A DNA stretch of 59,819 nt from a virus. Position numbers and translations under genes: made by a program. Where the stretch lies: positions 1 to 59,819 of the IMG/VR virus record IMGVR_UViG_3300044710_000061. One strand, given 5' to 3'. Below are positions 45,380-53,428 of this stretch, piece after piece. Below the pieces are notes generated by a model. It worked only from the letters and a program-made list of their open reading frames with translations, was not told the DNA's origin and did not search any database. Within the stretch, counting starts at the first letter, position 1; every line of letters starts with the position of its first letter.

Positions 45380-45961
45380 CTAAGCTGTTGCAGCTTGGAC
45401 TAAGTGTTCTGAGGAGACATAAACACGTCTCTGGCCGCCAAGTAGTTTCACTAAAACGCATATTCTCGAATCGTCGTCAAGTGTTTCAATTTCTCCGCAG
45501 AACTCAACCCACAAGCCTTTGCGTATGAGAACCTTATCGCCGACCTTGAATTTCGGCTCGGTATGTTCGCTTTTCATGTTTACAGTCCAAAGGCTTAACT
45601 CGAGTTGGCGGATTTGCATGATGCCGACGTGCGACGGGTCGTTGTGGCTGATCGTGGCCAGTTCACCGTTGGTTTTCAACAGCGCGCGCTCGCCGTAGGT
45701 CATGCCGGGCGCGGTGCGCAGCGATTCCCATCCGGTGCGGTGCGGCAGCACGAAGAGGTATCCAGGAAACATTGATTTGCTGCCGTCCTGAATGCGGCGG
45801 CGGCGATCCGTGAATTGTCTAGGCATGGTCGGCCTGTAGACCGTGTAGCCGCGAACCCTCAGGGCTTGTTTGGCCATATAGTCGAGGCCTGGCTGGGCAA
45901 TTGCGACATGCCAGCGAAGGACTCCCTCTTGCGGAATGTTGTCCCAATGGATGGCGGTCAT
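45380..45961 (-). CDS. NusG-like transcription antitermination protein
   Basis: 193 aa from ATG 45961 (ATGA with the upstream stop; the longer ORF start is in another gene). NGN-type domain: WHVAIAQPGLDYMAKQALRVRGYTVYRP, KSMFPGYLFV, then a KOW domain from about residue 140 (FKVGDKVLIRKGLWVEFCGEIETL). Paralogues such as RfaH bind RNA polymerase and suppress termination. Here it could carry polymerase through the terminator at 44.8 kb into the late genes. Confidence 0.8.
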   Translation of the reverse strand: MTAIHWDNIPQEGVLRWHVAIAQPGLDYMAKQALRVRGYTVYRPTMPRQFTDRRRRIQDGSKSMFPGYLFVLPHRTGWESLRTAPGMTYGERALLKTNGELATISHNDPSHVGIMQIRQLELSLWTVNMKSEHTEPKFKVGDKVLIRKGLWVEFCGEIETLDDDSRICVLVKLLGGQRRVYVSSEHLVQAATA

Positions 45962-46464
45962 GAGTTCCCCTTGGATGGTTTCAGATTGCGCGTGGCGTCT
46001 TCGACGGTCAGCCGCTCGAACCAGGTTTCCCGAACGCCAAGCCGTTTTTTGATATCCGCAATCACGCGATCGCACTGGGCTTTGCGTTCGGCCATCTCGG
46101 CTTTCGGAATGACCGGCGCTGGCAATGCGGGTCGCTCGAGCTTTGCGCGTTCCCAAATTGGCTCGGTGTGGATTTCGCACCACTCGTGGACCTCACCGGC
46201 GTTGGGCCGGAATTTCTTGCACTCGCGCGCAATGCCGTGAACCGGCGAGCAGCATTGAACGGCAACCTCCCGCGGGAACTGCGAGAGCACCGTGGCGACA
46301 TTCGCGATGTAGCCGTCAGGAAGATCGCTGCCAGTTGAGTAGGCTGATAGCATCCGCCCCACTTCCCGAAGAACTTCCGGCGGCGTCAGCCTGGCGTTCA
46401 AGCGCTGCGTCCAGCTCATCTGCGAGTTGGAACGCCCTCTCGGCAGGGTGCTGTCGATGGCCAT
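45958..46464 (-). CDS. Replication-linked protein overlapping the replication initiator gene
   Basis: 168 aa from ATG 46464 with strong GGAGG 9 bases upstream. LTPPEVLREVGRMLSAY, VATVLSQFPREVAVQ and FRPNAGEVHEWCE resemble phage proteins found after DnaD/O-like genes, possibly helicase-loader partners. It overlaps the end of the upstream gene by 149 bases in another frame. Confidence 0.6.
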   Translation of the reverse strand: MAIDSTLPRGRSNSQMSWTQRLNARLTPPEVLREVGRMLSAYSTGSDLPDGYIANVATVLSQFPREVAVQCCSPVHGIARECKKFRPNAGEVHEWCEIHTEPIWERAKLERPALPAPVIPKAEMAERKAQCDRVIADIKKRLGVRETWFERLTVEDATRNLKPSKGNS

Positions 46465-47146
46465 TGATGCGACCTCCGTTTGAGGTTTCCTGGAAATTGC
46501 TGGTTGTCCAATTGCGCCATGCGGCGTCCCAATTCGCATACGCGCGATTGTGGGCTAGGGCGCTGTCCGTGAAGCGGGCGAACTCCGACGTAGTGCGGGC
46601 GTCATTCCAGCCACGGTCTCGGCCGCACTGCTTTCGCTCTTCGGTCAATCCGAAATCTTCGGGAATGGAGCGCTTCGCACTCACTGCGCGCTTGGCGCGC
46701 TTCCCCCCACTAGGGGGGGTAGGGGGGTTATCTTCCTTAGGTCCTAGATCCAAGGTCCTAGGTCCTAGGTCAGCATCGAGGGCTCGCGAATGTTCTCGAG
46801 GGCTCGCGAGGAGGAGAGTTGGCGGGGGCAGGCGGGACTTGCTAGGCCTATCTATTTTCTGATGTTTTTGCCAATTTATGATCTCAAGATATTGGGCATT
46901 TTCGGCGATGTACCGACGGATGCAGCCTTCTCGCTCCAACTCCCTCAGCCACCCCTCCATGAGGTCGCGCGCATCATCGTCGTACGGGTAGAGAAGACTC
47001 GCGAGCATTCGCGAGGATGCGCGAGCCCTTCCTTCGTCGTCCGCCTCTGTCCATAATTGTATGAATAAAAGCCTAGCGTCTCGAGATAGACGACCGATTG
47101 TTTCTGACTTCGGAAACTCAGGCTTTATGGTGCGGATGCGGGCCAT
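46316..47146 (-). CDS. Phage replication protein, DnaD/lambda O type
   Basis: 276 aa. Opening RIRTIKPEFPKSETIGRLSRDARLLFIQLWTEADDEGRA is the standard start of phage replisome-organiser winged-helix proteins, followed by a low-complexity linker and a C-terminal part. It would bind the origin and recruit host helicase. Tandem direct repeats in its coding sequence (46738-46810) look like iterons, as in lambda O. Confidence 0.75.
   Translation of the reverse strand: MARIRTIKPEFPKSETIGRLSRDARLLFIQLWTEADDEGRARASSRMLASLLYPYDDDARDLMEGWLRELEREGCIRRYIAENAQYLEIINWQKHQKIDRPSKSRLPPPTLLLASPREHSRALDADLGPRTLDLGPKEDNPPTPPSGGKRAKRAVSAKRSIPEDFGLTEERKQCGRDRGWNDARTTSEFARFTDSALAHNRAYANWDAAWRNWTTSNFQETSNGGRINGHRQHPAERAFQLADELDAALERQADAAGSSSGSGADAISLLNWQRSS
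46738..46810. repeat. Iteron-like repeats inside the replication gene (putative origin)
   Basis: GGTCCTAG occurs at 46740, 46754 and 46761 (7-base spacing for the last two), and TCGAGGGCTCGCGA at 46776-46789 and 46796-46809 (20-base period). Further TCGCGAG copies lie at 46998-47020. Direct repeats within an initiator gene are a usual phage origin layout. Confidence 0.5.
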
Positions 47147-48989: not shown

Positions 48990-49310
48990 TCACAACAACC
49001 TCTCCTGCACTGTCATCCGCCACGACGGCACGTCCCTCGGCTCGCGCCGTATCCTCAGCCGGTACCGGTGCAGGCCGCGCTGGCCTGGCACGCGCTCCCT
49101 ATCGACCGCGTGAGCACCGAACTTCGGCTTTCGGAAATCCCGCGTACGGGCGTTTATGGACGCCCAGCGATAGCCCGTGATGCGTTCCAGCTCTTCTGGC
49201 GTATGCCACTGCTCGTCCGCCATTGCGGCCCACACACGGGCATATTGGCTCCGCAGGCGGTCACCATCGAGTGCCTCGTCATAGGTTTCGCCATCGAAGG
49301 TCTGGGTCAT
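48990..49310 (-). CDS. Winged-helix phage protein
   Basis: 106 aa. Helical HTPEELERITGYRWASINARTRDFRKPKFG followed by wing strands (GLHRYRLRI). This is a common small phage DNA-binding protein. Lies four bases after the GcrA gene stop; regulatory role likely. Confidence 0.65.
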   Translation of the reverse strand: MTQTFDGETYDEALDGDRLRSQYARVWAAMADEQWHTPEELERITGYRWASINARTRDFRKPKFGAHAVDRERVPGQRGLHRYRLRIRREPRDVPSWRMTVQERLL

Positions 49311-49313
49311 GGG

Positions 49314-49820
49314 TCACGCCGCTATCCGCAGTCGCCTGAATGCGTCTTCCGACATCGACCGTTTCAGGTGGCAGCGGCAGTACGCCAGGCCGCCACCGAC
49401 GTTAGGATCGCCGCAGAAGAAATACTGGCCCCCTCGTGACGGCGCATTGAGCGGCCATCGGCATTGCGTTGGCTCAAGGTCCAGCAATGCCACGCCTGTG
49501 CCATCGACGTAGGCTTCTTCCTTGATGGGATCGGCCTTGAATTCCGGCGGCTCTTCCTTGCGTTTTGGCATGATGGTGATCTCCCGGTTTTTCTGAACAG
49601 GCTTAGCTGCCTTATTTGAAGATCCTGGCCAGCCGGGCGCACGAGGAGTCAGCCCCAACCTATGAACGCGTCCAGCTACAGCATTTCGGGTGCGCCCTAC
49701 CTCAGCCGCTATGAAAGACAAGGTAACCCCCTCGGCCCACCTAACCTTGAGGAGATCATCTTCGGTCGTCACCCATAGCCGCGGTTGACTCCATGGTTCC
49801 GGCGCAAATTCGAAATTCAT
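49314..49820 (-). CDS. gcrA: GcrA-family cell-cycle regulator
   Basis: 168 aa, near host GcrA length. N-terminal HTH (TTEDDLLKVRWAEGVTLSFIAAEVGRTRNAVAGRVHRLGL, residues 18-57), a linker, and the C-terminal sigma-binding domain: LLDLEPTQCRWPLNAP, FFCGDP and YCRCH with its zinc Cys. In alphaproteobacteria GcrA binds RNA polymerase sigma70 and works with CcrM-methylated GANTC sites. A phage copy could redirect cell-cycle transcription or drive phage promoters. Confidence 0.85.
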   Translation of the reverse strand: MNFEFAPEPWSQPRLWVTTEDDLLKVRWAEGVTLSFIAAEVGRTRNAVAGRVHRLGLTPRAPGWPGSSNKAAKPVQKNREITIMPKRKEEPPEFKADPIKEEAYVDGTGVALLDLEPTQCRWPLNAPSRGGQYFFCGDPNVGGGLAYCRCHLKRSMSEDAFRRLRIAA

Positions 49821-50500
49821 TTCTGCGTCTCCGCCAGCATTCTGATTATCTTTGACCTGATGCCCTGCAATGACTTACCCAAAGCCAATGCGATCTCCCG
49901 AACCGGAGCGCCGGACGACCTCATCTGCTTGAGTTTTTCAACTTGTTCTGAGGTGTACTTCTCTCGCGGCCCTTGCGCGCTGCGAGGCTCATCCGCAATA
50001 GACCCGTCCAACATAATCTCAATTCTTGAGATGGCTTCTATGGTTGCTGGCTCTTTCTGAAGACGAATTATCGACTCAATGGCCCGCACACCACTAATGA
50101 TCGTAGTGTGGTCACACCTGTTAAACTTGCTAGCTATTTGATGGTAGGAACACCGCGTGAGTTTGCGGCACAGGTAGAATGCAACATGCCTTGGCCTAAC
50201 AAATCTATAACTCCTATTCTCTGATAGGATACCCCGCATATCTACGTTGAAGTATCTTGAGGTTTGCCGCAATATTTCATGCATTCTGCCGTGTTTTATG
50301 ATGACATTTGGCAGTTGCACCGGAGGTGCAGACTGAAATGCAGGCTTAGCCTTACGCTTCTTTTCAGGTGGCTTAGGTGGCAATATTGGCTTGCTATCGA
50401 TACTTTCCATCCCTGCCAATCGGCGTCTATGCCCTTCCATAACGCGACGCTTGACCTCTTCAGCCGTCTTGCAATCGTCTTTAACTGCCAGCCAAACCAT
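49817..50500 (-). CDS. DnaA domain IV protein with GcrA-type C-terminal HTH
   Basis: 227 aa. Residues 68-150 match DnaA domain IV: EILRQTSRYFNVDMRGILSENR, RHVAFYLCRKLTRCSYHQIASKF and signature DHTTIISGVRAIE (130-142). No AAA+ domain is present. Residues 180-225 (YTSEQVEKLKQMRSSGAPVREIALALGKSLQGIRSKI) look like a GcrA/Myb-like HTH. It would bind DnaA-box-like DNA without ATPase activity, as competitor or as phage origin binder. ATGA overlap with gcrA downstream. Confidence 0.75.
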   Translation of the reverse strand: MVWLAVKDDCKTAEEVKRRVMEGHRRRLAGMESIDSKPILPPKPPEKKRKAKPAFQSAPPVQLPNVIIKHGRMHEILRQTSRYFNVDMRGILSENRSYRFVRPRHVAFYLCRKLTRCSYHQIASKFNRCDHTTIISGVRAIESIIRLQKEPATIEAISRIEIMLDGSIADEPRSAQGPREKYTSEQVEKLKQMRSSGAPVREIALALGKSLQGIRSKIIRMLAETQK

Positions 50501-50509
50501 TTTCCCTCC

Positions 50510-51049
50510 TTATTCCTTCGGACATATCTCGACACGGCACATGCCACTCTGAATTCCAGGCCCAAACTCGATAATTTGCTTGCGGCAATCACGATCGTTG
50601 CCGATCGCCATTATCCGCTCCAAATAATCCTCAAGGACTTTCATCCTGTTTCCGCAGTCATATTTGCCAGCATCCTGCTCCGGCCAAATGATGTGGATGA
50701 CATACAGTCCCTTGAATACCGGCAGGGGCTTTGGCCATGACCCGCAAACCATCAGCACATAAGGATCAGCTTTCTGGATCCATTTCTGCACGGATGGAGA
50801 GCGATTCCCGAGCTTGCGCATCATGGTGTTCACGCTCGGTGGGAGCGGTAGGTCCAACACCAATCGCCGCGTTGGCATCTTCATCATGATGCCGTGCCGA
50901 TCGCTCGGGTGAAAATGCTCGTCGGTGAGGCGCGCCACCTCCCAACCATCGAGGAGGTGGTGCCCTATCTCAGAATAGGGCACCCTCTTGTAGGCGCCAT
51001 CCAGCAGACCGCGTTGGTCTGCTGGAAAGATTGCGAGAGGATCGCTCAT
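50510..51049 (-). CDS. RusA-like Holliday junction resolvase with N-terminal extension
   Basis: 179 aa. From residue 60: LVLDLPLPPSVNTMM, then D126, D131/N134 in AGKYDCGNRMKVLEDYLER and D152 in IGNDRDC, the acidic/Asn pattern of RusA endonucleases. The first 55 residues (YSEIGHHLLDGWEVARLTDEHFHPSDRHGIMM) resemble a separate small phage protein, so this may be a fusion. Resolves branched DNA during replication and packaging. Confidence 0.7.
   Translation of the reverse strand: MSDPLAIFPADQRGLLDGAYKRVPYSEIGHHLLDGWEVARLTDEHFHPSDRHGIMMKMPTRRLVLDLPLPPSVNTMMRKLGNRSPSVQKWIQKADPYVLMVCGSWPKPLPVFKGLYVIHIIWPEQDAGKYDCGNRMKVLEDYLERIMAIGNDRDCRKQIIEFGPGIQSGMCRVEICPKE
50935..51026. repeat. Three perfect inverted repeats in the resolvase gene start
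   Basis: Stem 1: 50935-50942 with 50953-50960 (8 bp). Stem 2: 50959-50968 with 50975-50984 (10 bp, loop 6). Stem 3: 51000-51010 with 51016-51026 (11 bp, loop 5). They stand side by side within about 90 bases of coding sequence. Confidence 0.75.
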
Positions 51050-51061
51050 CTCGCGCTATTC

Positions 51062-51445
51062 CTACGAATCAGGGAGAAACCCAGCAGGCAAAGGCGCAGG
51101 CACGTCCTTCTCGGCAAGAGCCTGATAACGAGCAATAATTCTCCGACAAGCCTCAATATCCGCCCGATACATCTCAGGGTCCACCGACTCCAGGTAACGG
51201 GCGTCTGCGTGGAGTCGCAAAATGAGCTCGCTATCATTTTCTGAATCCTTTCTCTGCGCGGCAGCCTCCAGCTTCAATCTGGTTTTCCTGCTAAGCCGCC
51301 ATTCCTCATAAAATGCTGCATATGCTTGGCGCACGCTTATCCCCGCGGTCTTTGCTACGCGCGCCAACCAAGCTTTTCGATTTTCATTGTGTTGGAGATA
51401 GCCGCCTATCCTGGCGACCAACTCTCTCCCGTAACGATTTTGCAT
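51062..51445 (-). CDS. First gene of the left early operon, HTH-like
   Basis: 127 aa with GGAGAG six bases before ATG 51445. Contains WLARVAKTAGISVRQAYAAFYEEW, readable as a helix-turn-helix, then charged helices with RADIEACRRIIARYQALAE. Likely a DNA-binding early protein; no family named. Confidence 0.6.
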   Translation of the reverse strand: MQNRYGRELVARIGGYLQHNENRKAWLARVAKTAGISVRQAYAAFYEEWRLSRKTRLKLEAAAQRKDSENDSELILRLHADARYLESVDPEMYRADIEACRRIIARYQALAEKDVPAPLPAGFLPDS

Positions 51446-52861: not shown

Positions 52862-53038
52862 ATGACCAACAAGAAATGCGACTGGTGCGAGCAGGCTGAT
52901 CGGCCGCTGGCCAAATACAGTGCAGAGCCGCATATCGCTCCCCATCGATTTTTTTGCTCGCTCGAATGCAGCAATTCATATCACGGCAGCATCGGCCGCA
53001 TTCAGTTCGCCAGCGCGGGCGCCAAACGGGAGCGCTGA
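52862..53038 (+). CDS. Zinc-finger-like first gene of the right early operon
   Basis: 58 aa from ATG 52862 (GGGAG seven bases upstream). CDWC...CSLEC gives a four-Cys site. Ends in IGRIQFASAGAKRER, the first of three similar C-termini in consecutive genes. Probably a regulatory or host-interaction protein. Confidence 0.65.
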   Translation: MTNKKCDWCEQADRPLAKYSAEPHIAPHRFFCSLECSNSYHGSIGRIQFASAGAKRER

Positions 53039-53039
53039 G

Positions 53040-53243
53040 ATGATCCCCTTCGAAGAACAGGAAGAAATCCGCCGGCTCGCATCGAATGCGTTCAATTACG
53101 GCGAAGGAGAAGCTAACGCCATAATTGAAGGGCGCGACTTCGACCGCCTGCCCTATTCGCACCGTGCCCGCTGGTTGCGCTCCGAGGCCATGCGCATCGG
53201 CAGCATTCAGTTCGCCAGCGCCGACGCACGGAGGGTGAAATGA
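53040..53243 (+). CDS. Small early protein with QFASA tail
   Basis: 67 aa from ATG 53040 following the previous TGA (TGAGATG). Helical (EEQEEIRRLASNAFNYGEGEANAII), ending IGSIQFASADARRVK, similar to the genes on both sides. GGAGGGTGAA in the tail is the ribosome binding site for the next gene. Confidence 0.65.
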   Translation: MIPFEEQEEIRRLASNAFNYGEGEANAIIEGRDFDRLPYSHRARWLRSEAMRIGSIQFASADARRVK

Positions 53244-53428
53244 CTAAAGAACAGGCCCTCTACTTCATCAACCAGGAATTGTCTCGCATCGAGATGATCA
53301 AGCTCCGTTCTGATCTCACCGACGAACAGAAGCTTGAAGCAGTCCGCATCGGCCAGCTGCAGTTTGTATCTGCCGGCGCAAGGCGAGAGCTCTACGAGCT
53401 GGACGGCGACGGTGCTGGCGACGAATGA
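53240..53428 (+). CDS. Small helical early protein with QFVSA motif
   Basis: 62 aa, ATGA overlap with the previous gene. KEQALYFINQELSRIEMIKLRSDLTDEQKLEAVRIG then QLQFVSAGARRELYELD. Third copy of the shared C-terminal motif. Function unknown. Confidence 0.65.
   Translation: MTKEQALYFINQELSRIEMIKLRSDLTDEQKLEAVRIGQLQFVSAGARRELYELDGDGAGDE

Follow-up and report, generated by a model that had tools for sequence, protein, structure and literature searches.

A phage gene for a DnaA domain IV protein beside gcrA: a possible regulatory pair directed at the alphaproteobacterial cell cycle

Why should a phage encode, side by side, a protein with the DNA-reading domain of DnaA and a protein of the GcrA family? 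In the host, DnaA and GcrA are regulators linked with the onset of S phase, and genes for both kinds of protein adjoin in the 59.8 kb IMG/VR virus record IMGVR_UViG_3300044710_000061, the whole of which (59,819 nt) we analyzed and refer to as the window.

The gene pair and its early operon

The preliminary description of this DNA had reported two genes coupled by ATGA, and we confirmed on the sequence both open reading frames, which lie on the minus strand, and their overlap. The surrounding features are as follows.

51062-51445, minus strand: gene of 127 aa, with relatives found by phmmer
50510-51049, minus strand: RusA-like Holliday junction resolvase (phrog_34, E 2.3e-9), directly upstream of the fusion gene
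49817-50500, minus strand: DnaA domain IV-HTH fusion gene, 227 aa (PF08299 and HTH_38)
49817-49820, minus strand: ATGA overlap of stop and start (fusion TGA 49819-49817, gcrA ATG 49820-49818)
49314-49820, minus strand: gcrA, GcrA-family protein of 168 aa (PF07750)
48990-49310, leftward early operon: gene of 106 aa
47689-48963, minus strand, same early operon: ParB N-terminal domain protein (PF02195, E 5.7e-10)
46316-47146, minus strand, same early operon: replisome organizer or replication initiation protein (phrog_2149, E 1.2e-30; phrog_1408, E 1e-29)
45380-45958, leftward early operon: NusG/RfaH-type protein (PF02357, E 2.7e-5)
~44 to 2 kb, minus strand: late genes

The ATGA overlap likely couples translation of the fusion gene to that of gcrA, and a ribosome site (GGAGG) precedes the fusion gene. 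Genes of the kinds found upstream of the pair also occur at other loci: relatives of the 127-aa gene lie upstream of the gene for DnaA domain IV (DnaA_C) in L045 (phmmer E 5.9e-62) and in L046, L011, L072 and L080 (E 5.2e-7 to 4.5e-5), and a RusA-like gene immediately precedes DnaA_C in L021, as judged by eye, and GcrA in L054, where the order is RusA-like, GcrA, DnaA_C. At the other end of the operon, the NusG/RfaH-type protein is a candidate antiterminator of the late operon; it has a counterpart in L045, and an RfaH-like protein is annotated near the GcrA gene of MW202785. Three 34-nt repeats (52989-53022, 53194-53227 and 53346-53379) encode a near-identical C-terminal peptide, IGxIQFASAxARR, in three neighbouring small ORFs.

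The fusion protein consists of the following parts.

N-terminal tail, with one helix at residues 13-29
residues 74-141: DnaA domain IV (PF08299, E 2.3e-20; 72.8 bits against a cut-off of 31.5)
residues ~179-224: C-terminal HTH (HTH_38 and model)

From both sequence and model, the identity of residues 74-141 as DnaA domain IV is certain. They matched the DnaA DNA-binding domains of PDB entries 1j1v and 3pvp in sequence, and in an AlphaFold2 model of the whole protein (pLDDT 81) the domain matched the DnaA-box complex 1j1v with a TM-score of 0.93 and an rmsd of 1.1 Å. No match to the AAA+ ATPase domain (PF00308) was found anywhere in the 227 residues, and the earlier claim of a DnaA domain IV without an AAA+ domain thus holds far beyond chance. 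In the alignment with 1j1v, the fusion protein retained the residues corresponding to R399, D433, H434, T435 and T436 of E. coli DnaA, and had H120 in place of P423; we take these six residues of E. coli DnaA to be DnaA-box contacts in that structure. Because a histidine stands in place of P423, the site preference of the fusion domain may differ from that of E. coli DnaA.

The product of gcrA matched PF07750 (E 1.1e-21; 78.3 bits against a cut-off of 26.9; profile positions 3-145 of 155) and, over both domains, the GcrA of PDB entry 7ye1 (E 1.2e-11), which places its description as a complete GcrA-type protein far beyond chance. It also matched 5yiu and 5yix in sequence, and 7ye1, 5yiv and 5yix in fold: the modelled DNA-binding domain agreed with that of Caulobacter GcrA (5yiv) to 0.9 Å, with 48% identity, and 5yix matched the sigma-interacting domain with a TM-score to the target of 0.77. 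The recognition-helix motif R-N-A-V-x-G-x-x-H-R-L is present (TRNAVAGRVHRLGL), as is, in the C-terminal sigma-interacting domain, the pattern C-x-WP ... FCG ... YC ... H. The score against the cellular GcrA equivalog NF050816 was 59.2 bits, compared with a cut-off of 280, and the protein is a member of the GcrA family and not the cellular equivalog. A single-sequence scan of IMG/VR with this protein found no close relatives. Caulobacter GcrA recognizes methylated promoter DNA through residues 1-45 and binds region 2 of sigma through residues 108-173 (review PMC7403470). The window protein has both of these working parts, which, to judge from sequence and model, would be active.

The fusion protein had further been described as carrying a second GcrA-like HTH, and of this the HTH was borne out and the specific assignment to GcrA was not. 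The tail is an HTH according to its match to HTH_38 (E 1.7e-5; 24.9 bits, under the family cut-off of 27) and to the three helices of its AlphaFold2 model. Its kinship with GcrA is only suggestive: comparison with 21 phage GcrA-type proteins by hhalign gave a probability of 81% (E 1.2e-5 for a single comparison), the isolated tail scored E 0.12 against the Pfam GcrA profile, and the GcrA recognition-helix motif is absent from the tail, which reads KSLQGIRSKIIRM. Single-sequence scans of IMG/VR and of GTDB genomes, which address close relatives, found none that has the fusion. Three tblastn matches reaching residue 227 (L041, L043 and L044) proved to have unrelated tails, and in the relatives' loci that we checked, no separate HTH ORF that could be the source of the fusion was seen between DnaA_C and GcrA.

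These tails bear on the possibility that the C-terminal HTH is an accident, either a recent read-through or an assembly artefact, and that the working unit is plain DnaA_C with GcrA. Such an origin would fit the finding that none of the other long-tailed DnaA_C proteins examined has a related tail, that the window is the one place where we saw domain IV joined to a second HTH, and that the close relatives L021 and L045 terminate soon after domain IV. Nevertheless, we regard it as very improbable, given that the fusion gene is a single open frame of 227 aa with a good ribosome site and ATGA coupling to gcrA, that the tail has both a profile match and a helical model, and that tandem HTHs occur in several phage GcrA proteins.

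Recurrence of the pairing in other phages

An alignment made up of DnaA_C proteins alone, without GcrA, served to scan IMG/VR, and from the best 80 of the 268 matches, which were fetched, we analyzed 79 loci in 62 non-redundant clusters. GcrA-family ORFs were called at E < 1e-10 with an HMM built from phage GcrA proteins, and 1.5 kb was the limit for a neighbour. Among these best 80 of 268 matches, a GcrA gene lay within 1.5 kb of the DnaA_C gene in 15 of 62 clusters, on the same strand in all of them, and beyond 1.5 kb in 1 cluster (binomial P 1.3e-7 for the position of GcrA within the fetched DNA), in a set of loci that is biased toward relatives of the window and in which related phages are only partly independent. 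GcrA was downstream in 11 of the paired clusters and upstream in 4 (L047, L054, L067 and L081). Pfam confirmed DnaA_C in 23 of 23 proteins tested and GcrA in 18 of 21 candidates, and the DnaA ATPase was present in 2 of the 23 DnaA_C proteins. At two loci (L065:4951-7377 and L068:5062-6832), a full-length-sized phage DnaA gene is followed by a GcrA-family gene on the same strand. The paired loci were scattered on the DnaA_C tree (12 changes compared with 16 after shuffling; 71 columns, poorly resolved), and in the circular Bradyrhizobium elkanii phage pUSDA31-2 the DnaA_C and GcrA genes overlap by 8 bases.

A reverse scan with GcrA found a DnaA_C neighbour at 6 of 34 loci, 5 of which were on contigs already known, and none at the other 28. 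Phage GcrA accordingly does not need DnaA_C, and the unpaired gene is the commoner state.

The locus had been interpreted at the outset as a cell-cycle mimic module, an idea that the pairing supports in part, both through the 15 clusters found without the use of GcrA and through pUSDA31-2. Many distinct phages, with either gene order and with different virion types, have GcrA next to a DnaA domain IV that lacks the ATPase; this recurrence makes a definable module, and suggests, from sequence comparison, a way of steering the replication phase of the host. Whether alphaproteobacterial phages take over the two host regulators linked to S-phase onset thereby becomes a testable question, and the predicted small natural DnaA-site binders, together with the GcrA variants, are potential tools.

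Host signals and the target of the pair

GANTC is the site of CcrM. In the window it showed the strongest depletion among 16 gapped palindromes (observed/expected 0.54-0.56), and the corresponding ratios were 0.38 for paired loci, 0.30 for DnaA_C-only loci and 0.24 for GcrA-only loci, compared with 0.64-1.13 for six control palindromes; the exception among the paired loci was L085, with a ratio of 1.0. This depletion points to CcrM-type, i.e. alphaproteobacterial, hosts, which the phages of the window and of most related loci most likely infect. The closest relatives of the window terminase in the phage collection were those of Acetobacter, Rhizobium and Bradyrhizobium phages.

The combination of GcrA with CcrM was rejected for the window: the methyltransferases near several DnaA_C genes matched the CcrM model only over a short stretch and far below its cut-off (51-86 bits compared with 830), and a search of the window for a relative of the L013 methyltransferase found none. 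Several kinds of DNA methyltransferase gene occur near phage DnaA_C genes, and at four of the fetched loci the neighbours include a gene for the DNA polymerase III beta clamp.

We then consider where the two proteins might bind. Neither the window as a whole nor the DNA within ~6 kb of DnaA_C genes was enriched in consensus DnaA boxes, in a scan that may miss sites because alphaproteobacterial boxes are degenerate; the idea that the phage itself has an excess of consensus boxes for binding in cis is not supported. Nor was GANTC preferentially retained in non-coding DNA (25 observed compared with 51 expected). Both observations favor targets in the host, reached in trans, or else a small number of sites on the phage.

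Our preferred reading, to which we assign a probability of roughly 45%, is that the two genes form an early-operon regulatory pair in a phage of an alphaproteobacterium, directed at host transcription and at competition for DnaA sites. Because both functional regions of host GcrA are retained in the phage protein, as seen in sequence and model, the phage GcrA most likely rides the host sigma70 holoenzyme, and it would favor promoters with CcrM-methylated GANTC. The fusion protein would read DnaA-box-like sites through domain IV, with the second HTH providing a second DNA contact; having neither an ATPase nor a helicase-loading domain, it could not open an origin as DnaA does. The pair would then act in trans on replication-phase promoters and DnaA sites of the host, and perhaps additionally at a few phage sites, so that the supply of replication proteins might be raised while DnaA meets competition or is re-aimed, and the phage would replicate in an S-phase-like cell. 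This host-directed reading is favored by the fold and domains of GcrA, the retained equivalents of presumed box-contacting residues, the recurrent same-strand pairing and its scatter on the tree, the rarity of the ATPase among the DnaA_C proteins tested, the depletion of GANTC, the lack of box enrichment and the lack of preferential retention of GANTC in non-coding DNA.

Against the host-directed reading, DnaA_C genes often have phage replication genes around them, whether or not GcrA is present, which fits a role in replication too. We rank second, as a serious contender, the possibility that the fusion protein binds the phage origin as an accessory to the replisome organizer (46316-47146), somewhat like lambda O at iterons, and that GcrA is a separate transcription factor of the same operon. 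Replication-initiation, primosomal and helicase families were the commonest DnaA_C neighbours, counted in the fetched loci alone, and in MW202613 and RHph_N28_2 the genes that adjoin DnaA_C are of the replisome-organizer or DUF1376 kind. Within the replisome-organizer gene of the window, direct and inverted short repeats (TAGGTCCTAG and CTCGCGA) at 46738-46810 and 46998-47029 form a candidate lambda-O-like origin, which would suit an origin accessory. However, such a role is at odds with the lack of enrichment of consensus boxes and leaves the repeated pairing with GcrA unexplained.

A third possibility, which we consider rather improbable, is that both proteins have no role in the host cell cycle and serve as ordinary transcription factors for the timing of the phage's own genes, for example by activating the late operon. 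The position of the pair in the early operon, upstream of the NusG-like gene and of late genes on the same strand, is consistent with such timing, as are three GANTC sites within 30 bp (1139-1168), 28-53 bp upstream of a plus-strand gene at 1192, although this is a weak signal because ~0.35 such triples are expected by rough estimate. The strong depletion of GANTC, with no preference for non-coding DNA, argues against it, as does the fact that the proteins imitate specifically the DNA readers of the host cell cycle.

A bolder extension of the host-directed reading, which we regard as doubtful, is a widespread phage cell-cycle takeover module, in which an ATPase-less DnaA head would rival or redirect host DnaA and, co-expressed with a methylation-reading sigma70 cofactor, would push alphaproteobacterial hosts into the replication phase; the window head, with its second DNA-binding domain, would be a bridging regulator.

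Comparison with known systems

Phage GcrA is already known: phiCbK-like phages encode it, and a role in raising the expression of host replication genes has been suggested for it (PMC3556154), a proposal repeated in PMC9437464. The recurrence of the DnaA_C and GcrA pair is new here. A table of phiLM21-like prophages gives counts of 5 for GcrA and 1 for DnaA (PMC12429752), and in the literature on phage DnaA domain IV or Bac_DnaA_C we found no DnaA_C-GcrA pair, which is weak evidence because subscription papers were mostly outside its coverage.

The phiCbK protein gp222 and the 'GcrA-like' genes of Rhizobium and Brevundimonas phages likewise belong to the phage GcrA family, with both domains recognizable. 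In the Rhizobium and Brevundimonas stretches examined, no DnaA_C is annotated alongside, whereas the window gcrA is coupled to DnaA_C-HTH. Conversely, the 'DnaA-like domain-containing protein' of Rhizobium phage RHph_N28_2 and its counterparts in Bradyrhizobium phages ppBjS10J-1 and ppBeUSDA76-2 resemble the window protein in having domain IV without the ATPase and in lying in the early or replication region, but none of the three has an annotated GcrA neighbour, and the ppBjS10J-1 protein lacks a C-terminal HTH. Compared with the chromosomal proteins of the host, the fusion protein shares the DNA-reading domain IV of DnaA and is missing its AAA+ ATPase; the window GcrA shares the DNA-binding and sigma-interacting domains of host GcrA and scores far below the equivalog cut-off.

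In pUSDA31-2 (NZ_CP126028.1; L013 and L015), DnaA_C is followed directly by a GcrA-family gene, as in the window; unlike in the window, its DnaA_C has no tail HTH, and its GcrA carries two HTHs and differs at the C-terminus. These genes are followed by a third GcrA-like HTH gene and by one for a DNA methyltransferase, and the structural genes are of siphovirus type. Although named a plasmid of B. elkanii, pUSDA31-2 has portal, tail and tape-measure genes, and is thus a circular phage or phage-plasmid genome; a 126-base 'BlaB-9' resistance annotation on it looks spurious.

Two variants were seen among the phage GcrA proteins. Tandem two-HTH forms are encoded at L019:2288-2995, L054:4551-5207, L047:1790-2392 and L013:9302-9892. 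In a GcrA-HTH subfamily that includes the last of these (with L022:6796-7263, L028:6399-6812 and L034:6267-6650), a shared C-terminal motif, KTSxxYRN...LxxMLAEAVRNT, replaces the sigma-interacting domain.
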